From Saccharicrinis carchari (GTDB lineage: Bacteria; Bacteroidota; Bacteroidia; Bacteroidales; Marinilabiliaceae): a stretch of DNA of 64,000 nucleotides. The notes below the pieces were generated by a model. The model did not search any database. It saw only the letters and a program-made list of their open reading frames with translations, and was not told the origin of the DNA. The stretch's first letter is position 1. Each line of letters starts with the position of its first letter. Shown in pieces: positions 3,466 through 53,970 of this stretch. The position numbers and the translations under genes are program-made. The stretch lies in assembly GCF_900182605.1 (NCBI RefSeq), contig NZ_FXTB01000012.1, forward strand, positions 1-64,000. Reading direction: 5' to 3'.

Positions 3466-3624
3466 TCGTTTCATAACATGTTTGTGTTTTGTTAGAATAC
3501 AATATACATATAGTTGTAATATACTACAACTTCATATAGGTTAATTTCTTCATTGCCCACTGTGGGGAGAGCGGAAGTTCTTATTTATTCAAATTTCCTG
3601 CAAAATACCTACATGCCTCAAAAT

Positions 3625-3704
3625 AGTAAAGGGGAAAAAGCAAGGCTTTTTTCCGTCGGATTTGTTCATTCCGTAAAAAACGGAATGACATAAACCCCTT
3701 GACT
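3625..3704 (+). promoter_or_regulatory. Conserved three-way-junction leader upstream of the RadC-like gene
   Basis: The outer stem AGTAAAGGGG (3625-3634) pairs with CCCCTTGACT (3695-3704) with one mismatch. It encloses arm 1, AAAAAGC-aag-GCTTTTT (3635-3651), and arm 2, TCATTCCG-N7-CGGAATGA (3666-3688). The same architecture lies upstream of ArdC at 43081-43162. There arm 2 and the outer stem are the same sequence, but arm 1 is CGGTTTT/AAAACCG, a different sequence that still pairs. The start codon follows about 93 nt later, after an AAATCCC..GGCA..GGGT box that ArdC also has. It could be an RNA leader, a protein-binding cruciform or a single-stranded-DNA promoter. Confidence 0.6.
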
Positions 3705-3797
3705 TATTTTTCATCATCCGGTCTTTAAGCACAAAATTTAATTAAAACAGGTGTGCTTGATACCATTAAAAAATCCCAAAGGCATGGGTATTAAATT

Positions 3798-4244
3798 ATG
3801 AATGAATACAATTTCCCACAAGTTGAATTAAAGTATGTATTAGACAGTAAACCCATTTATAAAATAAATGGACCTAGTGATATTTGCCGATATGCACGAT
3901 CTCTTTATGATGGAGATACTATATCACACAGAGAGTTTTTCTTTGTTATCTTCTTAAACCGTTCAAATCATATTTCGGGATATTATAAAGCTTCGGAAGG
4001 TGGAATATCCGGAACAGTCGTCGATGTTCGTACTATTTTTCAAGCGGCGCTACTTAGCCAAGCTTCGGGATGTATTATAACGCACAACCATCCATCAGGC
4101 AATCTTGAACCATCACAACAAGACATGGCCATCACAAATAAAATTAAAGCTGCGGCAAAGATGCTGGATATCGCGTTACTAGACCATATAATTGTCAATG
4201 CTTTTGATGAGTACTACAGTTTTGCAAATGAAGGGGCTTTATAG
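3798..4244 (+). CDS. RadC-like JAB/MPN-domain protein
   Basis: This 148-residue protein consists almost entirely of a RadC-type JAMM domain. The metal-binding signature is HNHPSGN at residues 96-102 with Asp109 in SQQDMA, i.e. HxH(x10)D. It lacks the N-terminal helix-hairpin-helix part of full RadC, as is usual for the short RadC-like genes on Bacteroidota plasmids and integrative elements. The biochemical role is unsettled; proteins of this kind are frequently found with anti-restriction genes such as ArdC. It is a single gene with its own leader (3625-3704) and its own terminator, which overlaps the stop codon. Confidence 0.85.
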   Translation: MNEYNFPQVELKYVLDSKPIYKINGPSDICRYARSLYDGDTISHREFFFVIFLNRSNHISGYYKASEGGISGTVVDVRTIFQAALLSQASGCIITHNHPSGNLEPSQQDMAITNKIKAAAKMLDIALLDHIIVNAFDEYYSFANEGAL

Positions 4245-42801: not shown

Positions 42802-43080
42802 GCCCCCAGCGGTATCCCCTGCGTTACAGCACTTGGCATTACTTAGCGGAAGGTGACCTGAAAAACGTCCGTGCCCCTTCCGCCACTCCATGCCAAGAGC
42901 TTTGAACACCCCGCCAACACGCTTGCAAATAAGGCTCCCTTGCTCCGTAAACTACGACAAGGAAACCTTTTATTTGGAAGCGTGTTTTTTTGCCCGAGCG
43001 CCTGAATGAGGCAACTCGCCGTTGGGTGATGCACCGTACCGTCCTTGGTTTGCTGCAAGTTATTGATCGCCAAAGGGAAC
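42802..43080 (+). repeat. Structured dispersed repeat, copy 3
   Basis: It aligns with copies 1 and 2 from CCCCCAGCGGTA to GCAAGTTATTGAT. The base of hairpin I is kept (CTTGGCAT/ATGCCAAG), but its upper part changes to GCGGAAGG/CCTTCCGC, losing GTGACC/GGTCAC and pairing differently. Hairpin II basal pairs AAATAA/TTATTT are present. It is immediately followed by the ArdC leader, so repeat and leader are adjacent here, while at copy 1 the XRE gene lies between them. Confidence 0.82.
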
Positions 43081-43162
43081 AGTAAAGGGGCGGTTTTGAA
43101 AAAAACCGTCCTTCGGATTTGTTCATTCCGCAAAAAAACGGAATGACATAAACCCCTTGACT
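43081..43162 (+). promoter_or_regulatory. Conserved three-way-junction leader upstream of ArdC
   Basis: Outer stem AGTAAAGGGG (43081-43090) with CCCCTTGACT (43153-43162); arm 1 CGGTTTT-gaaa-AAAACCG (43091-43108, with one extra loop A); arm 2 TCATTCCG-N8-CGGAATGA (43123-43146). Outer stem and arm 2 are identical to the RadC leader, while arm 1 is an unrelated but self-complementary sequence. The ArdC start codon follows 83 nt later, after AAATCCCC..GGGCA..GGGT. Confidence 0.6.
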
Positions 43163-43245
43163 CGTTCCCTTTGGCTCAAAGTGCCTGCAATAAACCAATG
43201 GCGGGCCAGATGCCAAAATAAATCCCCAGGGCAGGGGTGATTCGA

Positions 43246-44162: not shown

Positions 44163-45050
44163 TTAATGTTTTTTTGCCTGTTTCTGGTGATACCTGCAAT
44201 ATCCGATGTTGTTCCTTGTTTTTTGCTTACATCTTTTCCCCGTTGATTTGGCTATGCCTTTGCATTGGGTTGAAGCCGTTGTGCTTTTGGTGGCTGCGGG
44301 TTTCCGTTGTGAGCTGCTAAATTCCCATGCCGAGATATCTGAGGTAGCTTCCAATTTATCCTCTAAAGAATCCTCCATGCCCTGAAAGAAATCTATTCCC
44401 GTCAACGCTTCTACTTGGTCAACTGTTTTTACGTAAGCGGCAATAGGCTGAAACAGCTTTTTGTTGGGCATCACGAAAGCAATCATTTTCTGCTTGCTCG
44501 GACAATATACGACCTTGTAGTAGTACCCCGGCACGGTTACTTGGTTGGTACCTATATGTCCTATGTTATCTTTAAAAACGGGGCCGGTGGCCACCACCAA
44601 ATTTTGATATTGATTTGTCCATTTACGTACCTGGCTTTCCAACATCTTCCAACGGCCGGTATTGAAAGAAGGCGCCTGGGGCGACATGTTAGAAAGAAAA
44701 AAGGATTCCGACATGGAGGTGCGGTTCATATCCATAGAGCCTGCCGGACACAAATGCCCCCTATGGTAGCCGCTGCCCTTATAATCAGTCAGTGTAGCCG
44801 AACCCGTGGACACTTTTGGATCTGGACGAAAGTCGTCGGTCCGTTTCTCAGAGCCGTTTACCAGCTCCGGGGTGAGCTTATAATATACCCAAATGGCCTG
44901 TTCGTGCTGTTCGCTATAGCAAAGTGTGTAGTATGTGTGTTCTGCAATTTGTCCCGATGATTTGGGAACTAGGTTTTTGCCCCCTAGCGATAGGGACAAG
45001 AAAACAAATGATAAAAGAAAAATAAATTTTTTCAAAATAAGCAGCTTCAT
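44163..45050 (-). CDS. Secreted DNA/RNA non-specific endonuclease with Cys/His tail
   Basis: 295 residues with a signal peptide (about 1-24). The core is a beta-beta-alpha-metal nuclease of the NucA/EndA type: GYHRGHLCPAGSM carries HRGH at residues 96-99 (DRGH in most members, with the final His as general base), and FLSNMSPQAPSFN supplies the metal-binding Asn. The C-terminal 30 residues hold CKGIAKSTGKRC...YCRYHQK, a C-x11-C-x10-C-x2-H arrangement that could bind zinc and contact nucleic acid. It may serve in nucleotide scavenging or DNA clearance. It is convergent with ArdC, and no operon partner is visible. Confidence 0.88.
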   Translation of the reverse strand: MKLLILKKFIFLLSFVFLSLSLGGKNLVPKSSGQIAEHTYYTLCYSEQHEQAIWVYYKLTPELVNGSEKRTDDFRPDPKVSTGSATLTDYKGSGYHRGHLCPAGSMDMNRTSMSESFFLSNMSPQAPSFNTGRWKMLESQVRKWTNQYQNLVVATGPVFKDNIGHIGTNQVTVPGYYYKVVYCPSKQKMIAFVMPNKKLFQPIAAYVKTVDQVEALTGIDFFQGMEDSLEDKLEATSDISAWEFSSSQRKPAATKSTTASTQCKGIAKSTGKRCKQKTRNNIGYCRYHQKQAKKH

Positions 45051-45780: not shown

Positions 45781-46266
45781 CTATTTCAACTTTTCAATTA
45801 TTTGTTCTTCATTTGGTAGGTATTTCCGTAAATCTGATGGAAGGTCTTTTGTCAACTGGTATTCTGCTACACCAATTGGTCTATTTGCAATTCGCAGTGC
45901 ATATTCTACCTCCAAATTATCTTTTATTTTCGATAAAATTAACAAGTTATGCCCCCAGGGAACTTCTGCGACAAGCTGTCGCAGTTTTTCATTTTTAGAA
46001 TATCTTGAATAAAACCGCCTCATATCCCAAAGGTTTCTAGCGGAATAACCTTCGGAATTAGGGAACTCAGCTTGTAAATCGGTCGACAACTTTTCAACAA
46101 CAGATTTCCCCCATTCTTGCGATTCTTGTATTTCCAGAATTATTCTACCAATATTTAGATAATGTTCTATTTGCTCTTTAACAACTTTACGAATAACTTT
46201 TATATGTGCTGTCCGTATCTCATTTCTAATTTGTTCGAGAGTATCCGAATATATTTTCCCTAACAT
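45781..46266 (-). CDS. Internally deleted DUF1016/YhcG-like protein
   Basis: 161 residues. The first 116 or so match the N-terminal DUF1016 region of YhcG-type PDDEXK nucleases (EQIEHYLNIGRIILEIQES, YSARNLWDMRRFY, VPWGHNLLILSKIKD). The remainder matches the extreme C-terminus (VEYALRIANRPIGVAEYQL, then DLP and LP spaced as in the family). The roughly 180 residues between, which include the nuclease core of full-length members (about 340 residues), are missing, with the joint near base 45915. The frame is intact across the joint. It is either a natural nuclease-less small version or a decayed gene; no nuclease activity is expected. Confidence 0.7.
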   Translation of the reverse strand: MLGKIYSDTLEQIRNEIRTAHIKVIRKVVKEQIEHYLNIGRIILEIQESQEWGKSVVEKLSTDLQAEFPNSEGYSARNLWDMRRFYSRYSKNEKLRQLVAEVPWGHNLLILSKIKDNLEVEYALRIANRPIGVAEYQLTKDLPSDLRKYLPNEEQIIEKLK

Positions 46267-47109: not shown

Positions 47110-49149
47110 ATGAATACAATGAGCATAGATAAATTAAATTTAAAAAGCCCCGACCTGGTGAGTGAGAACATAGAAAAACTGGCCGCACTTTTCCCCAATT
47201 GTGTTACCGAAAGTAAAATAGAAACAGCCACCGGTACCGAGCTTAGCCGGAGTATTGATTTTGATTTGCTCAAACAGGAGCTGAGCCATGCCGTGGTGGA
47301 AGGCAACAAGGAGCGTTACCGCCTGGAGTGGCCCGGAAAACGCGAAGCCATTGTTACGGCCAACTTGCCAACAACAAAAACCTTGCGCCCCGTGCGCAAC
47401 GATTCCGTTGATTTTGACAATACCGAAAACCTATATATTGAGGGCGACAACCTGGAGGTGCTCAAGCTATTGCAAGAAAGCTATCTGGGCAAGGTGAAGA
47501 TGATTTACATTGACCCCCCATACAACACGGGAAAGGACTTTGTGTATAAAGACAATTTTAGCAAAGATATACAACAGGAACTTTTTGAGAGCGGACAAAA
47601 AGACGAATACAACCAACGCTTAACTGTTAACCCCGAAACCGCAGGGCGTTATCATTCGGATTGGTTGAGTATGATGTATCCGAGGTTGAAATTAGCCCGT
47701 AATTTATTGACCGATGATGGGGTTATCTTCATCTCAATAGATGATAATGAGGTGCATAACCTACGAAAGTTATGTGATGATATTTATGGAGAAAATAATT
47801 TCCTTGCAAATATCGTGTGGCAAAAAAAATATGCAGCAACCAATGATGCAAAGGGTTTTTCAAACTTACATGATCATATAATAGTCTATCAAAAGTCAAA
47901 TGCGTTTGAGCGCTATCTTCTTCCTCGAACTGTTGAGCAAAATAAACCATATAAGAATGATGATAATGATGGTAAAGGGCTATGGCGTTCTGATAATCTT
48001 TTAGTTAAATCCTTTTCTAACTCAGGTGTTTATCCAATCGTCAATCCAAATACTGGTAAAAAGTATTTGCCACCAGAAGGGAATTGTTGGCGTGCCAGCC
48101 CTGATACGATGCGGGTTTGGTTAAGCGAAAATAGAATCTTTTTCGGAAAAGATGGGAAGGGTGCACCTCAATTAAAAAGATATTTAAACGAAGTACAACA
48201 AGGTAGGGTTCCAAATACATGGTGGACATTCCAAGAAGTAGGACATAATGATGCAGCAAATAAAGAACTGAAAGCACTATTTAGCTCTAAGGCTCCATTT
48301 GATACACCAAAACCATCTACTTTGATTAAACAAATGTTAATGGTTTCTACACGAAATGATGATATAGTTTTAGATTTTTTTTCTGGTTCGGCAACAACAG
48401 CTCATGCTGCAATAAAATTAAACGCTGAAGGTGAAAGAAGTTGTAAATACATTATGGTTCAAATTCCTGAAACTACCGACTCAAAAAGTGAAGCTTACAA
48501 AGCAGGTTACAAAAACATCTGCGAAATAGGCAAAGAACGCATCCGCCGTGCAGGAACTCAAATTGTAAATAATCAATTGTCGGTTGTTAATGATAAAAAA
48601 ACCGTATTGGAGAAGTTGATAAACGGAAAGTTGATAAAAGAAAATGGTGAATGGCGTTTCCCCGATAATGCACTAATCGAAGATAAAGCGCAAAACCTGC
48701 TGCAAGAGCTCAACCAACTACAGCTCAACATTGATAACCTGGACACCGGTTTCCGCGTCTATCGTCTCGACGAAAGCAATATGCAGGATGTGTATTACAA
48801 ACCGCAGGATTACAAACAGGACATGATGGATATGTTTGCCGATAACGTAAAGCCCGGCCGATCGGCCGACGATCTGTTGGCGCAGGTGATGTTGGATTGG
48901 GGCCTGCCGCTCTCCTTAAAAATTGAGCAAGCAAACGTGGTGGGCAAGCAAGTGTTTAAGGTGGCCGGCAACTCGCTTTATGCCTGTTTCGATAAAGGGA
49001 TAGACGAGGACTTTGCCAAGGAGATAGCAAAGGAAACGCCCTTGCGCATCGTATTCCGCGATAATGGTTTTAAAAACGATACCGCCAAGGTAAACGTGCA
49101 GCAACTGTTAAAACAACTGAGCCCCGAAACCGAAATGAAAGTAATTTAA
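47110..49149 (+). CDS. mod: Type III restriction-modification methyltransferase (Mod)
   Basis: 679 residues. An adenine-N6 methyltransferase of the beta class: the catalytic motif DPPYNTGKDF starts at D135 and the AdoMet motif LDFFSGSATTAHA follows at about 421, in that order. ENLYIEGDNLEVLKLLQ before the DPPY motif is typical of Mod subunits. The segment about 225-400 should hold target recognition; its base composition is AT-richer than the flanks, as often seen for exchangeable recognition domains. No simple-sequence tract suggesting phase variation was found. It is the first gene of the operon, 4 bp before the next gene. Confidence 0.95.
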   Translation: MNTMSIDKLNLKSPDLVSENIEKLAALFPNCVTESKIETATGTELSRSIDFDLLKQELSHAVVEGNKERYRLEWPGKREAIVTANLPTTKTLRPVRNDSVDFDNTENLYIEGDNLEVLKLLQESYLGKVKMIYIDPPYNTGKDFVYKDNFSKDIQQELFESGQKDEYNQRLTVNPETAGRYHSDWLSMMYPRLKLARNLLTDDGVIFISIDDNEVHNLRKLCDDIYGENNFLANIVWQKKYAATNDAKGFSNLHDHIIVYQKSNAFERYLLPRTVEQNKPYKNDDNDGKGLWRSDNLLVKSFSNSGVYPIVNPNTGKKYLPPEGNCWRASPDTMRVWLSENRIFFGKDGKGAPQLKRYLNEVQQGRVPNTWWTFQEVGHNDAANKELKALFSSKAPFDTPKPSTLIKQMLMVSTRNDDIVLDFFSGSATTAHAAIKLNAEGERSCKYIMVQIPETTDSKSEAYKAGYKNICEIGKERIRRAGTQIVNNQLSVVNDKKTVLEKLINGKLIKENGEWRFPDNALIEDKAQNLLQELNQLQLNIDNLDTGFRVYRLDESNMQDVYYKPQDYKQDMMDMFADNVKPGRSADDLLAQVMLDWGLPLSLKIEQANVVGKQVFKVAGNSLYACFDKGIDEDFAKEIAKETPLRIVFRDNGFKNDTAKVNVQQLLKQLSPETEMKVI

Positions 49150-49153
49150 GCAA

Positions 49154-50821
49154 ATGGCACTACCGGTAAACATAGAAGAATTAATCCATGGAGAAACAGT
49201 TGAATGGGCTCGTATTGAACTGAAAAAAGGTTGGAATGCAAAAAAAGTAATGCATACCATGTGTGCTTTTGCAAATGACATTCATAATTGGGGTGGTGGC
49301 TATTTGATTGTTGGAGTTGAAGAAGTTGATGGCCAAGCTAAACTTCCACCTGAAGGAATAGAACAAAGTACAATAGATGGTATTCAAAAGGAGCTATTAC
49401 AGTTAAGTCATCGTATTACACCTAACTACTTCCCCATAGTTGAACCTTATATATTAGATCAGAAACATATATTGGTCATTTGGTGTCCTGCAGGGGATTT
49501 TCGCCCTTTTTCTGCTCCGGCTTCATTGGAGAAAGGAGCGCATAGAAACTATTATATCAGGCTCAATTCTAATACTGTTATTGCTCCGCAGCACTCTGCA
49601 GAATATAATCGGCTCATGGAACTTGCAGCCCGCATCCCCTTTGACGATAGAGTCAATAACCAAGCTTCGATTGATGATTTGGATTTAGGCTTAATCAGAG
49701 AATATCTACAAGAAATTAAAAGCGGTCTGTTTGAAGATAGCGCCCATTTGCCTTTAGCCGATTTATGCAGGACAATGCATATTGCAAAAGGACCGAATGA
49801 AGATATCAGACCCGTAAATGTGGGCTTATTATTCTTTTCGAAAGAGCCACATCAATTTTTTGACAGAGCTTGGATAGAGCTGGTAATACACAAGGGCAAT
49901 TCAGGAAAAGACTTTGAAGAAAAATACTACAAAGGGCCACTCCATAAGCAACTAAGAGAAGCGCTTTATTTTATTAAGAATAATATTGTTTCGGAACAAG
50001 TCATTAAACATGCCGACAAAGCAGAATCCGATCGTTTTTTTAATTATCCTTTTGGTGCCATAGAAGAAGTTTTAGCCAATGCAGTGTATCATAAAAGCTA
50101 TGAGCATGGAGCACCTATAGAAATTCAGATTTTTCCGGACCGAATAACCATTCTTAGTCATCCAGGCCCGGTTCCTCCTGTTAATGCTCATGTAATGGCG
50201 AATCAAAAACAAATTATTGCAAGAGAATACCGCAATCGTAGAATAGGGGATTTTTTAAAGGAACTACATCTTACCGAAGGACGGGGCACCGGTTTCCCTA
50301 CAATATATAAGGCATTGGCCGATAATGGCTCACCTACACCAACTTTTGAAACGGATGAAGCTTCTTATGTTATGGTTGTTATTCCTATTCATGATCGTTT
50401 TAAAGGTACTGAAAGTGACGGAGCAGGTGACGGAGTAAGTGACGATGTAAAGGCGCCTAAATTCAATACTTTAAACGATGTTATAGTTTTTTGTGACCAA
50501 GTAAGTGACCAAGCAGGTAACCAAGTAAGTAACCAAGTAAGTAACCAAGTAAGTAAGCAAGTAAAAACACTTGTTGAGCAAAATGTTAATGATAAAGTCC
50601 TATCCATATTAGCTTTTTTAGAAAAAGGACCTAAATCAATGAGCGAACTATTATCCCATATAGGAGTAAGCAAGCAGACAAAAAACAAGAGAAAATATAT
50701 AGACCCTTTATTCGATATTGATTGGTTGGCTTACACTATTCCCGAAAATCCGAGAGACAGAAATCAGAAATACAAAATAACAGAGTCGGGCAAGAAATTA
50801 TTAAAAATACTCAACAAATAA
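49154..50821 (+). CDS. AlbA_2/Schlafen-like ATP-binding DNA-binding protein
   Basis: 555 residues. The AlbA_2 domain covers about residues 10-130 (MCAFANDIHNWGGGYLIVGVEE). A GHKL-type ATPase-like domain lies at about 300-415 (IEEVLANAVYHKSY, then RRIGDFLKELHLTEGRGTGF). A repetitive Q/V/S/N linker (about 448-472) leads to a winged-helix end. It belongs to the COG2865-type family seen with restriction genes. It is embedded between mod and res, with 4 bp to mod and its stop overlapping the res start (TAATG), so co-translation is likely. Its role in the restriction system is not established; regulator or accessory effector are options. Confidence 0.85.
   Translation: MALPVNIEELIHGETVEWARIELKKGWNAKKVMHTMCAFANDIHNWGGGYLIVGVEEVDGQAKLPPEGIEQSTIDGIQKELLQLSHRITPNYFPIVEPYILDQKHILVIWCPAGDFRPFSAPASLEKGAHRNYYIRLNSNTVIAPQHSAEYNRLMELAARIPFDDRVNNQASIDDLDLGLIREYLQEIKSGLFEDSAHLPLADLCRTMHIAKGPNEDIRPVNVGLLFFSKEPHQFFDRAWIELVIHKGNSGKDFEEKYYKGPLHKQLREALYFIKNNIVSEQVIKHADKAESDRFFNYPFGAIEEVLANAVYHKSYEHGAPIEIQIFPDRITILSHPGPVPPVNAHVMANQKQIIAREYRNRRIGDFLKELHLTEGRGTGFPTIYKALADNGSPTPTFETDEASYVMVVIPIHDRFKGTESDGAGDGVSDDVKAPKFNTLNDVIVFCDQVSDQAGNQVSNQVSNQVSKQVKTLVEQNVNDKVLSILAFLEKGPKSMSELLSHIGVSKQTKNKRKYIDPLFDIDWLAYTIPENPRDRNQKYKITESGKKLLKILNK
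50495..50566 (+). repeat. 12-bp in-frame tandem repeat
   Basis: Six consecutive 12-bp units of the form RACCAAGTAAGT encode SDQA/SNQV-like four-residue repeats in the linker of the AlbA_2 protein. The central three units are identical. A shorter related run (GTGACGGAG units) lies at 50411-50446. Unit gain or loss would change linker length without a frameshift. Confidence 0.85.
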
Positions 50822-53800
50822 TGAAGCTTCAGTTTAAAGAGCAAGGTTTTCAGATAGATGCAGTAAAAGCGGCGGTGGATTGTTTTAAGGGGCAAGCCTT
50901 AAAAACCAACCGCTTTACCTTGGAACGCAGCCGCAGGCTAATAGAAAAGGCCAGGTTGGCCGCCCGGGGTGCTTCTACCATCGAATTTGAGCAAGACGTG
51001 CTGGAAGATATAGGGTACCGGAACAGCGGCATCCAGATTACCGAAGCGCAGATACTTAAAAATATACGCGAAGTACAGCAATTCAACGACCTGTTCGAGA
51101 GCCAACAGATTGAACGGCCCAAAGGCACAAAATTGGGCTACAACCTAACCATCGAAATGGAAACGGGCACAGGCAAAACCTATACCTATATCCGCACCAT
51201 GTACGAGCTGCACAAACATTACGGGTGGAGCAAGTTTATCGTCATCGTGCCCAGCATCGCCATCCGCGAAGGGGTTTTTAAATCCTTTCAGGTAACGCAG
51301 GATCATTTTCAGGAGCTGTATGGCCATAAAATAAATCCATTTATATACAATTCGGGCCGGCCACAGGATATTGAAAACTATGCTTCGGACAGTCGTATTA
51401 GCGTGATGATTATCAACACGCAGGCTTTTAATGCCCGGGGAACCGATGCCCGAAGAATCTATCAGGAGCTGGACCAGTTTGGCACCCGCAGGCCCATTGA
51501 AATTATCGCACAAACCAACCCTATCTTGATCATCGATGAACCGCAATCGGTTGAGGGGGCAAAAACCCTGGAGAGCATGCAGGATTTCAACCCCCTGCTC
51601 ACGCTCCGGTATTCGGCTACCCATAAAGTCGATTACAACAAAATATATCGTTTAGATGCCCTGGACGCCTACAACAAGCGCCTGGTAAAAAAGATACAGG
51701 TAAAGGGGATCAACCTAAAGGGTTCTACCGGCACCACAGGTTATTTATATTTGGAGCACATAGAAAGGAGCGCAAGCAAGCCACCCCTGGCGGTGCTTGA
51801 GTTTGAGCAGCGGACCAAGGCCGGCGCCATTAAAAAAGTGAGGAAAAAACTGGCACAGGGAGCCAACCTGTACGAGCTATCGGGCAACATGCCCGCATAT
51901 AAAAACCAGGTAATAACAGATATAAACGCATACCTCAATAAAGTGGCCATCGGAGGGCAAGAGCTCTACCCCGGCGATATACTAAACGACAAGGACGAAA
52001 ATGACTTCCGCAGGGTGCAGATACGCGAAACCATTATGTCGCACCTAAAAAAGGAAAAGCAATATTTTGGCATGGGCATAAAGGTGCTGTCCCTTTTCTT
52101 TATAGATGCCGTGGAAAAATACCGGGTGTACGATGAATCGGGGGACGAACTGCTGGGCGAATATGCCCGGATATTTGAGGAGGAATACGATAAGGTAAGA
52201 AGCGATTTCCTGGATTTGTTTCAGCAGGAATACAACGAATTTTTGTATGCCACCGACCCGGGCCAGGTTCACAAAGCATACCTGCCCGATGGGCAGACGG
52301 GCCTGCCCGGCAGATACGACGAGTATTTAAAGCGCGACCCGGCCGAAACGGTACACCAGGGCTATTTTTCCATTGATAAAAAGAACAAGCTCACAGATCC
52401 CAAGGTAAAGCGGGGAAAGGAAGACTCGGACGATATTTCGGCCTACGAACTTATTATGAAGGACAAGGAGCGCCTGTTGAGCTTTGATGAGCCTACGCGT
52501 TTTATCTTTTCGCACTCTGCACTAAAAGAAGGTTGGGACAACCCCAACGTGTTTCAGATATGTGCCTTAAAAAACACCGACAGCGGCAGCCAAACCAGGC
52601 GCCGGCAGGAGGTGGGCCGGGGCATGCGCCTTTGTGTGAACAAAAACGGCAACCGTCTGGATTTTGATTCGGTGGGCGACCGCGTACACGAAATAAACAA
52701 CCTGACGGTTATCGCCTCCGAAAGCTACGAAGCTTTTGCCAAAGGCCTGCAGCACGAAATTGCGGCAAGCTTAAAGGACAGGCCGCAGAAAGCAGAGGTG
52801 GAATATTTTGTGGGCAAGTTAATTCGTAACGAAAAACAGGACGAGTGCCGCATTACGGAGGAAGATGCCAAAAGACTAAACAAGCTCCTGTATAAGAATG
52901 ACGTGATAGACGTGGACGATAAAATTACCTCAATAGGCAGGGAGATAATTGAAGCTAAAAAGATACCCCTGCCCGAAAACCTGGAACCCTACCGGAATGC
53001 GATATGCAGTTTATTGCAGGCCGTTTACACAGGCAGCGAGTTTAAACCCGAAAACGAGCGCGATAAAATACTTGTAAGCACCAATAAAAACTTTTTCAGG
53101 AAAGAGTTCCGGGAGCTTTGGGAAAAAATTAATTTGAAAACCATTTACGAAGTCCGGTTCGATACGGCAAAGCTGATAGAGGACAGCAAAAACCTGATTA
53201 ATGCACAACTGCATATCGCCGATAGGATATACGAAATAAAAACAGGCGAACTGCGCGACGGCTCAAAAGAGCAAATGAAGGATGGGGTTTTGATAAAAGA
53301 GACCAAACGGGAGAACCTGAAATTAAAGAACGACCTGTATGCCAACACGGTTTACGATATTGTTGGGGAGATTGAAGTGCATACCAACCTTACGAGGCAA
53401 ACCATTGTAGGGGTGTTGAAGAAACTGAACCCGGAAAAATTCGCTTTGCTCAGAAAAAATCCCGAAGAGTTTATTTCAAAGTGCAGCAAGCTGATAAACG
53501 AAGTGAAAGCAAGCTTGATCATCAACAATATCGTTTATCACAAAACGGAGGAAAGGCACGATGCAAAAACGGTGTTTACTAACGACAAATCGGCTTTGCA
53601 CAATGCCGAGATGCTTAAAAAGCATATCTACGATTTCCTGATTTCCGATTCGCAAATAGAATCGGATTTTGCCACAGCCTTGGAAAACAGCACCGAAGTG
53701 GTAGTTTATGCCAAACTGCCCAAAAGCTTTTATGTTACTACCCCGGTTGCAAGATACAGCCCCGATTGGGCCATCGTATTCGATAAGGACAAAGTACGCC

Positions 53801-53970
53801 ACATCTATTTTGTGGCCGAGACCAAGGGCTCCGATTCGGACATGGATTTGCGCGAAATAGAAAAGCTGAAGATCCATTGTGCCGGCGAGCATTTTAAGGA
53901 AATAAGCGGAAACGAAGTGAAGTTTGAAAAAGTAAGCAGCTACGAAAGGCTGCTGGAAATTATCAACTAA
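50821..53970 (+). CDS. res: Type III restriction enzyme helicase/nuclease (Res)
   Basis: 1049 residues from ATG 50821, which overlaps the previous stop in TAATG; the frame is open 99 bp further upstream, but that lies inside the preceding gene. SF2 helicase motifs: METGTGKTYTYIRT (Walker A, K119), LIIDEPQ (D239), YSATHK, and a late GRGMR. The nuclease domain is C-terminal: SPDWAIVF (D982) with AETKG (E1000, K1002), a PD-(D/E)xK site. Both active sites look intact. A short GC-rich palindromic insertion lies at 52281-52313. It forms the restriction complex with Mod. Confidence 0.95.
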   Translation: MKLQFKEQGFQIDAVKAAVDCFKGQALKTNRFTLERSRRLIEKARLAARGASTIEFEQDVLEDIGYRNSGIQITEAQILKNIREVQQFNDLFESQQIERPKGTKLGYNLTIEMETGTGKTYTYIRTMYELHKHYGWSKFIVIVPSIAIREGVFKSFQVTQDHFQELYGHKINPFIYNSGRPQDIENYASDSRISVMIINTQAFNARGTDARRIYQELDQFGTRRPIEIIAQTNPILIIDEPQSVEGAKTLESMQDFNPLLTLRYSATHKVDYNKIYRLDALDAYNKRLVKKIQVKGINLKGSTGTTGYLYLEHIERSASKPPLAVLEFEQRTKAGAIKKVRKKLAQGANLYELSGNMPAYKNQVITDINAYLNKVAIGGQELYPGDILNDKDENDFRRVQIRETIMSHLKKEKQYFGMGIKVLSLFFIDAVEKYRVYDESGDELLGEYARIFEEEYDKVRSDFLDLFQQEYNEFLYATDPGQVHKAYLPDGQTGLPGRYDEYLKRDPAETVHQGYFSIDKKNKLTDPKVKRGKEDSDDISAYELIMKDKERLLSFDEPTRFIFSHSALKEGWDNPNVFQICALKNTDSGSQTRRRQEVGRGMRLCVNKNGNRLDFDSVGDRVHEINNLTVIASESYEAFAKGLQHEIAASLKDRPQKAEVEYFVGKLIRNEKQDECRITEEDAKRLNKLLYKNDVIDVDDKITSIGREIIEAKKIPLPENLEPYRNAICSLLQAVYTGSEFKPENERDKILVSTNKNFFRKEFRELWEKINLKTIYEVRFDTAKLIEDSKNLINAQLHIADRIYEIKTGELRDGSKEQMKDGVLIKETKRENLKLKNDLYANTVYDIVGEIEVHTNLTRQTIVGVLKKLNPEKFALLRKNPEEFISKCSKLINEVKASLIINNIVYHKTEERHDAKTVFTNDKSALHNAEMLKKHIYDFLISDSQIESDFATALENSTEVVVYAKLPKSFYVTTPVARYSPDWAIVFDKDKVRHIYFVAETKGSDSDMDLREIEKLKIHCAGEHFKEISGNEVKFEKVSSYERLLEIIN
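52281..52313 (+). repeat. REP-like palindromic insertion inside res
   Basis: CTGCCC-gat-GGGCAG followed by CGGGCCTGCCCGG reads in frame as PDGQTGLPG between AYL and RYDEYL. The GC-rich palindrome resembles small interspersed palindromes of Bacteroidota and adds about 10 residues without breaking the frame. Confidence 0.55.

Follow-up and report, generated by a model that had tools for sequence, protein, structure and literature searches.

A Bacteroidota family of folded leaders upstream of radC, ardC and other mobile-element genes: probable hairpin promoters

Two folded leaders that precede a RadC-like and an ArdC-like gene of Saccharicrinis carchari belong to a family of branched stem-loops found upstream of mobile-element genes in Bacteroidota. 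In a sister class of these leaders, the 5' arm of the long stem carries the consensus promoter of the phylum, on the strand opposite to the gene. It seems probable, judging from the sequences, that the leaders are hairpin promoters working like the Frpo/ssi elements of F and ColIb. The latter are stem-loops placed before the leading-region genes ssb, psiB and ardA of F, ColIb-P9 and their relatives, as outlined in PMC9849209 and PMC11541004. The single strand of Frpo folds so that -10 and -35 boxes are rebuilt, leading genes such as ssb are expressed early after entry, and conversion to duplex switches the promoter off (PMC9849209, PMC11541004).

The window, that is, the whole stretch of DNA analysed, comprises 64,000 nt of contig NZ_FXTB01000012.1. 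The leader sequences at 3625-3704 and 43081-43162 read in the DNA as the original prediction gave them, and its assignment of the downstream genes to the RadC-like (PF04002) and ArdC (PF08401 and PF18818) types is upheld. The leader pattern matches twice in the window as against 0 matches in 100 shuffles, and a genome-wide DNA search (4.64 Mb, E 0.001) places the leader at these two positions only. The features of the two copies, in window coordinates, are the following.

3600..3607, minus strand: candidate -7 box of the radC copy, TATTTTGC, one T short of the consensus TAnnTTTG
3604..3617: outermost 5' arm of the radC copy, AATACCTACATGCC, with its predicted partner at 3781-3792
3625..3704: core of the radC copy, with inner stem P1 (AGTAAAGGGG/CCCCTTGACT), arm 1, the mini-hairpin TCC-GTC-GGA and arm 2
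3625-3634, minus strand: candidate -33 region of the radC copy, CCCCTTTACT
3781..3792: 3' half of the outermost stem of the radC copy, GGCATGGGTATT
3798..4244, plus strand: RadC-like JAB-domain gene, 148 aa (PF04002)
43045..43057: outermost 5' arm of the ardC copy, TTGGTTTGCTGCA, with its predicted partner at 43186-43198
43055..43062, minus strand: candidate -7 box of the ardC copy, TAACTTGC, lying mostly in an internal loop of the predicted fold
43081..43162: core of the ardC copy, with P1, arm 1, the mini-hairpin TCC-TTC-GGA and arm 2
43186..43198: 3' half of the outermost stem of the ardC copy, TGCAATAAACCAA
43246..44121, plus strand: ArdC-like gene with ArdcN and zincin-like domains, 291 aa from the ATG

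Both strands of both copies fold far better than their shuffles (z -4.4 to -5.4; equalled by none of 200 shuffles). The anatomy is richer than the three-way junction first described, since a 3-bp mini-hairpin, TCC-NTC-GGA, adds a fourth element and makes the junction four-way. P1 contains one A.G mismatch. Its outward continuation, a feature missed earlier, differs between the copies (GGGAAC/GTTCCC versus AAAAT/ATTTT) and brings the stem to about 22 bp in the ardC copy. A further predicted outer stem closes each structure (43045-43057/43186-43198 and 3604-3617/3781-3792). The AAATCCC..GGCA..GGGT motif, previously taken for a separate box beside the radC ATG, is the 3' half of this outermost stem (GGCATGGGTATT).

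A third copy of the leader is present in the congener G002, on a contig matching JAGXIO010000100 (Saccharicrinis sp.); it is kept there (L004 1590-1750) despite preceding an ardC that ends after 16 codons, and its -7 box position reads TAACTTAC. About 280 nt on the 5' side of the ardC leader (window 42804-43080) fall within a 487-nt match to G002 at 89% identity; the match of the radC copy to G002 is confined to the leader core. Comparison of the three copies, two from the window and one from G002, bears out the claim that the pairing of arm 1 is kept with a different sequence: all 7 arm-1 pairs change on both sides, and so do 3 pairs of the outer stem. The total of 10 both-side changes among 38 pairs is equalled by 0 of 500 shuffles, and 98.2% of the cells are paired, a value that drops to 52-56% when the partner is slid by one column. 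Covariation thus gives strong support, from three sequences, to arm 1 and to the outer stem. Arm 2 is invariant in all three copies, which are therefore silent about it on their own. Compensatory changes of this kind are those looked for in an RNA leader, and a DNA structure fits the three sequences equally well. They also weigh against regarding the leaders as decayed or selfish repeats without function, such as a mobile hairpin element copied before genes. The persistence of the G002 leader before a truncated ardC would suit such a repeat, but the leaders keep a single orientation toward the start codon wherever a gene is named, and the same gene types recur downstream; we regard this origin as hardly credible.

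The original prediction called for a search of Bacteroidota genomes and expected the pattern upstream of other ArdC- and RadC-type genes. The exact sequence proves rare. Seven of 393 genomes of the order matched the loose pattern TTTGTTC..GACATAAACC, five of them by chance to judge from the matched strings, so that 2/393 hold a true copy; a scan of 84,980 species returned four matches, two of them true, the fold being absent from the others (L145, L146). In IMG/VR, the loose pattern matched at least 120 stretches, and the pattern GTGTTCA..TGACATACA at least 120 further ones, none of the 120 listed for either pattern being a true member by the descriptor. Blast of the window leaders against plasmids gave chance matches only, or none. 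The R1 model, run on 295 genomes of the order at E 0.5, matched seven: those in G000 and G129 are true, those in G099 and G178 were discarded on inspection, and those in G040, G065 and G102 are partial (E 0.16-0.43).

G129, a Bacteroidota MAG (contig JAKLIX010000001), harbours three related leaders inside 2.3 kb of a mobile element. They precede an ORF of 109 aa, a radC gene (PF04002) and an ORF of about 220 aa; Pfam gives no match for the products of the two ORFs. P1 (GTCAA../..TTGAC), the mini-hairpin (CCT-TTC-AGG, CCT-TAC-AGG or CCC-TGC-GGG) and arm 2 are retained, and 4 nt stand in place of arm 1. Inspection of the regions upstream of RadC homologues added a leader from a Pedobacter plasmid, also placed before RadC, which has the same P1, mismatch included, and otherwise a simple hairpin only. 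The same regions revealed a sister class, class A, with the core TCTCCACRCC-loop-GGTNGTA. Class A cores occur in Bacteroides, Phocaeicola and Prevotella records, in other genomes and in IMG/VR contigs, their carriers being conjugative elements, plasmids and tailed-phage contigs; the exact core was found at 4 places in 3 of 217 genomes of the class.

Core matches identical over the core and 25 flanking bases were merged, leaving 41 distinct ones, of which 29 were kept as class A leaders. The selection was made by eye, before the -7 box was noticed, and dropped 12 matches (L313, L314, L315, L317, L318, L319, L322, L324, L327, L332, L353 and L356). All 12 lie within an open frame of at least 110 codons, but so do 11 of the 29 that were kept. 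With the 7 leaders of class B, which include the three of G129 and the one of Pedobacter, the set amounts to 36.

Downstream of the 29 class A leaders stand RadC in seven cases (L279, L280, L303, L304, L307, L310, L346), ArdA in three (L280, L307, L330), SSB in one (L343) and, again in one (L316), a protein that matches ArdC-N below the cut-off. A PcfK/PcfJ-linked ORF follows in three more, by annotation in L306 and by likeness in L305 and L312, and the other 14 have small or unknown ORFs downstream, or none that was found. By position, then, the genes after the leaders include the leading-region or anti-defence types RadC, ArdC, ArdA and SSB. As for the expected occurrence upstream of other ArdC- and RadC-type genes, it is borne out for the architecture, which recurs on Bacteroidota elements before RadC, ArdA, SSB and the weak ArdC-N match, but most RadC homologues lack a leader, which accompanies just 2 of the 29 non-self RadC loci retrieved.

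The housekeeping promoter of Bacteroidota has TTTG at -33 and TAnnTTTG at -7, with TAHHTTTG as a refined form of the latter, and in F. johnsoniae the -33 box stands out less (PMC7366714, PMC6847099). The outer part of the class A 5' arm mostly reads GCAAAnnTA, giving TAnnTTTGC on the complementary minus strand, and its inner part mostly reads CAAGG, giving CCTTG there. The long stem thus holds in its 5' arm the minus-strand arrangement TTG-N18..22-TAnnTTTG. Within the 130-nt 5' arm, the minus strand has an exact TANNTTTG in 29 of the 36 leaders (28/29 class A, 1/7 class B); the sole class B instance lies outside its hairpin and is probably due to chance. The plus strand has no exact box in the 5' arm (0/36) or in the 3' arm (0/36), and the minus strand of the 3' arm has it in 3/36. 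Dinucleotide shuffles of the minus 5' arm give a mean of 1.75 box-bearing leaders of 36 and a maximum of 6. The -33 TTG stands 18-22 nt before the box in 24 of the 28 box-bearing class A leaders, where shuffling of the 26 nt before the box predicts 2.1. The box is present in 9 of 10 class A similarity clusters, and 27 of the 29 boxes conform to the refined consensus TAHHTTTG (PMC6847099).

The remaining class A leader (L344) carries TAnnTTCG, as does the class B leader of the 109-aa ORF in G129. If the box is relaxed to TAnnTTYG, 31/36 leaders have it on the minus strand of the 5' arm and 2/36 on the plus strand of that arm. The TTCG form is seen in two further relatives, on plasmid pMMCAT and in a faecal phage clone. 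The 330-nt regions upstream of 27 leaderless RadC genes, taken as a control, contain 7 plus-strand and 4 minus-strand boxes.

Taken at face value, -33 and -7 boxes of such good consensus could be an ordinary duplex promoter that reads leftward and yields a divergent or antisense transcript, with another role for the inverted repeat. However, the nearest genes on the left run rightwards in the annotated elements inspected, the arrangement persists in carriers that are unrelated, and the box is missing from core matches that have no hairpin: none of the 12 dropped matches has it on either strand, and their fold is unremarkable (z 0.8 to -2.4). We consider a leftward promoter very unlikely. An invertible promoter was rejected, the promoter being situated within the arms rather than between them. 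A forward promoter starting from the TTGACT of the 3' arm was dropped because a -7 box follows it in 0/36 leaders.

The folds of the 36 leaders have a median z of -5.1; 29 are below -3, and the 7 that fold at z -3 or weaker include the SSB leader (-0.3) and a phage radC leader (-1.9). The minus strand folds better in 29/36 with RNA parameters and in 24/36 with DNA parameters; the difference is small, and the minus strands contain more G.T pairs than the plus strands. Four of the 28 class A leaders have less than one third of their spacer base-paired in the predicted fold. For six leaders on viral contigs, the prediction leaves the A of the -7 box (position -11) unpaired. A generic scan for a hairpin-promoter device at four plasmid loci gave weak matches only, all in L298.

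These observations suggest the following mode of action. The minus strand of the 5' arm of the long imperfect stem would supply a promoter for sigma-ABfr, the sigma factor of the phylum (-33 TTG, -7 TAnnTTTG). As long as the DNA is duplex, this promoter would face away from the gene, with no recognisable forward promoter to take its place. Once the minus strand becomes single, either as the transferred strand in conjugation or in an extruded hairpin, it would fold; the promoter arm would then act as the non-template side, and its partner, the template side, would continue into the gene. RNA polymerase could thus leave the base of the hairpin toward radC, ardC, ardA or ssb, until second-strand synthesis turned the promoter off. 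The device would amount to a consensus promoter inverted inside the 5' arm, serving the gene only when one strand folds. Its activity, strand and timing are what we infer. Weaker backing comes from the slightly better folding of the minus strand, from the unpaired A of the -7 box and from the GNA loops and relaxase strands described below; the seven weakly folding leaders and the four with under a third of the spacer paired speak against it. The scheme makes a sharp prediction, namely that one box on one arm should matter.

How well do the window copies conform to this scheme? Their minus strands read CCCCTTTACT-...-TAACTTGC (ardC) and CCCCTTTACT-...-TATTTTGC (radC), with about the right spacing and one T missing; an exact TAnnTTTG is found in 0/2. 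Because their -7 boxes are shortened, they appear to be weaker members, presumably still working. The box of the ardC copy is predicted to sit mostly in an internal loop between stems, as the box of an opened promoter would. In the radC copy, a hairpin of the 3' arm interrupts the span of the promoter, and the predicted start site falls approximately at the ATG. Two of the G129 copies carry TACTTTGC on the minus strand. Within class B, the minus strand of the 5' arm has TANNTTGC in 4/7 leaders; the opposite strand of that arm and both strands of the 3' arm lack it in all seven. None of 2000 mononucleotide shuffles attains 4/7, for a motif that was picked after the data had been seen. Since the radC span is interrupted, with its start near the ATG, and since the class B motif is post hoc, a hairpin promoter may be held more firmly for class A than for the two copies in the window. 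The proposal of a folded single-stranded promoter, made earlier by analogy with anti-restriction genes of plasmids, has therefore gained an inverted Bacteroidota promoter in the stem, which had gone unseen, but sits less easily with the window boxes being one T short, with the additional hairpin of the radC copy and with carriage by tailed phages.

Some information on the strand comes from the carriers. Records with a leader and a relaxase, recognised by Pfam above cut-off or by annotation, show the gene and the relaxase on the same strand in 5 of 6 cases (NZ_CP072340, NC_022111, NZ_CP081918, NZ_MN657144 and G635). It must be noted that in NZ_CP072340 a second, plus-strand relaxase is nearer (about 13 versus 18 kb) and lies on the strand opposite to the leader gene; the one used is that beyond the tra genes, by analogy with NC_022111, which has a closely similar leader and for which the nearest relaxase was taken. 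In pMMCAT (L376), the annotated relaxase is on the strand opposite radC, and in L303 a below-cut-off relaxase match is on the strand of the leader. The same-strand relaxase, as a sign of the transferred strand, is a lead and not a test. At L376 11850-12330, the radC of this gut plasmid has a relative of class A, whose minus strand reads TACCTTCGC.

Three of the class A contigs (L348, L339 and L320; 3 of 10 proteins scanned) have terminase matches, which identify tailed phages among the carriers. We know of no single-stranded entry in tailed phages, nor is it expected. For these carriers, cruciform extrusion would offer an easier route to the folded state than conjugative entry. This raises the possibility that the same hairpin promoter is generally deployed by extrusion from supercoiled duplex and senses supercoiling or SSB rather than conjugative entry. 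The early promoters of phage N4 are hairpins formed by cruciform extrusion, and GNA loops are very stable in DNA; on the minus strand, the loop of the mini-hairpin is GNA in 5/7 class B leaders, the exceptions being the window radC copy (GAC) and the Pedobacter leader, and in several class A copies. Such a sensor agrees with the phage carriers, yet it leaves unexplained the presence of anti-restriction, RadC and SSB genes in conjugative elements after the leaders, as well as the same-strand relaxase in 5/6 records, and we regard it as quite unlikely. The broader statement, that a family of sigma-ABfr hairpin promoters is common to conjugative elements and tailed phages of Bacteroidota and would extend the Frpo counterpart to phages, we give an even chance.

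A different view is that the leaders act in cis as RNA. An upstream promoter would then produce a plus-strand RNA whose fold regulates mobile-element genes at the level of translation or termination, comparable to the Proteobacterial radC motif RF01754. The plus-strand RNA does fold well, and the apical loops of class A are often TNCG closed by C-G, which as RNA gives UNCG, a stable loop. RF01754, tabulated in PMC2864571, is likewise a long branched hairpin with several copies per genome: 11 copies were found in 5/398 genomes, and one Proteobacterial genome has 4 of them inside about 8.6 kb. These four (L365, L370, L374 and L375) all have a forward TTGAC immediately ahead and resemble a parallel set of RNA leaders belonging to one mobile element. 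Overall, 9/11 copies of RF01754, some of them close relatives, show a forward TTGAC box placed 22-29 nt ahead of the motif; the best forward -35/-10 scores of RF01754, 7-10 of 12, overlap the shuffle maxima of 9-11. In contrast, a search by the Bacteroidota consensus finds a plus-strand -7 box in 0/36 Bacteroidota leaders over the 110 nt that precede the hairpin base. Because of its fixed forward TTGAC, RF01754 looks like an RNA leader and the Bacteroidota leaders do not. Nor would an RNA leader account for a consensus promoter in the 5' arm that reads from the other strand. We think this explanation possible but unlikely. RF01754 was also considered as a second example of an inverted promoter, and its behaviour did not fit.

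None of the covariance models of Rfam matches the window, L143, L279, L280 or L300 at gathering score, and RF01754 does not match at E up to 10. The weak matches (E 0.31 to 9.1) are to snoRNA, miRNA, sRNA and similar families, none of which fits. RF01715, 'Pedo-repair', is also from Bacteroidota (Pedobacter) and precedes genes of the DNA-repair type; it has no gathering-score match to the same sequences, among them L300, the radC leader of the Pedobacter plasmid.

The closest parallel to the hairpin promoters proposed here is Frpo/ssi. Common to both are a stable stem-loop upstream of the gene, evident in the window copies and in the leaders with z < -3 (29/36), and boxes in the stem that would read toward the gene when the template strand is single (28/29 class A). 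They differ in the boxes, TTG/TAnnTTTG as opposed to TTGACA/TATAAT in Frpo, in the branched top of the Bacteroidota leaders and in the range of carriers, which extends to tailed phages; the Bacteroidota device is known here from sequence. The promoters of the phage N4 virion RNA polymerase share a hairpin promoter in a duplex phage genome, but are small hairpins served by a polymerase that the phage carries.

A word search of the main text of PMC11541004 does not find 'bacteroid', and the titles and abstract openings listed by searches of open-licence papers disclose no comparable device in Bacteroidota. Bacteroidota, which are major bacteria of the gut, exchange a great deal of DNA, and to our knowledge no way has been described by which their elements express protection genes on arrival. 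If the proposal is true, a folded-strand promoter with the sigma consensus of the phylum would be a searchable signature for leading regions and anti-defence genes, useful where the Frpo boxes TTGACA/TATAAT do not apply. It would also raise the question of why tailed phages carry a hairpin promoter.

The surroundings of ardC in the window deserve brief mention. A DNA/RNA non-specific endonuclease (PF01223) is encoded on the minus strand immediately adjoining ardC (44163-45050). At 45781-46266, DUF1016_N is accompanied by a short fragment of a YhcG nuclease domain that scores below the Pfam cut-off; the gene may be broken. Further downstream (47110-53970) lies a Type III-like restriction-modification set (DNA methylase, ResIII and RE_endonuc), with a Schlafen/AlbA-type gene inside it; the anti-restriction gene is therefore found near a restriction system.
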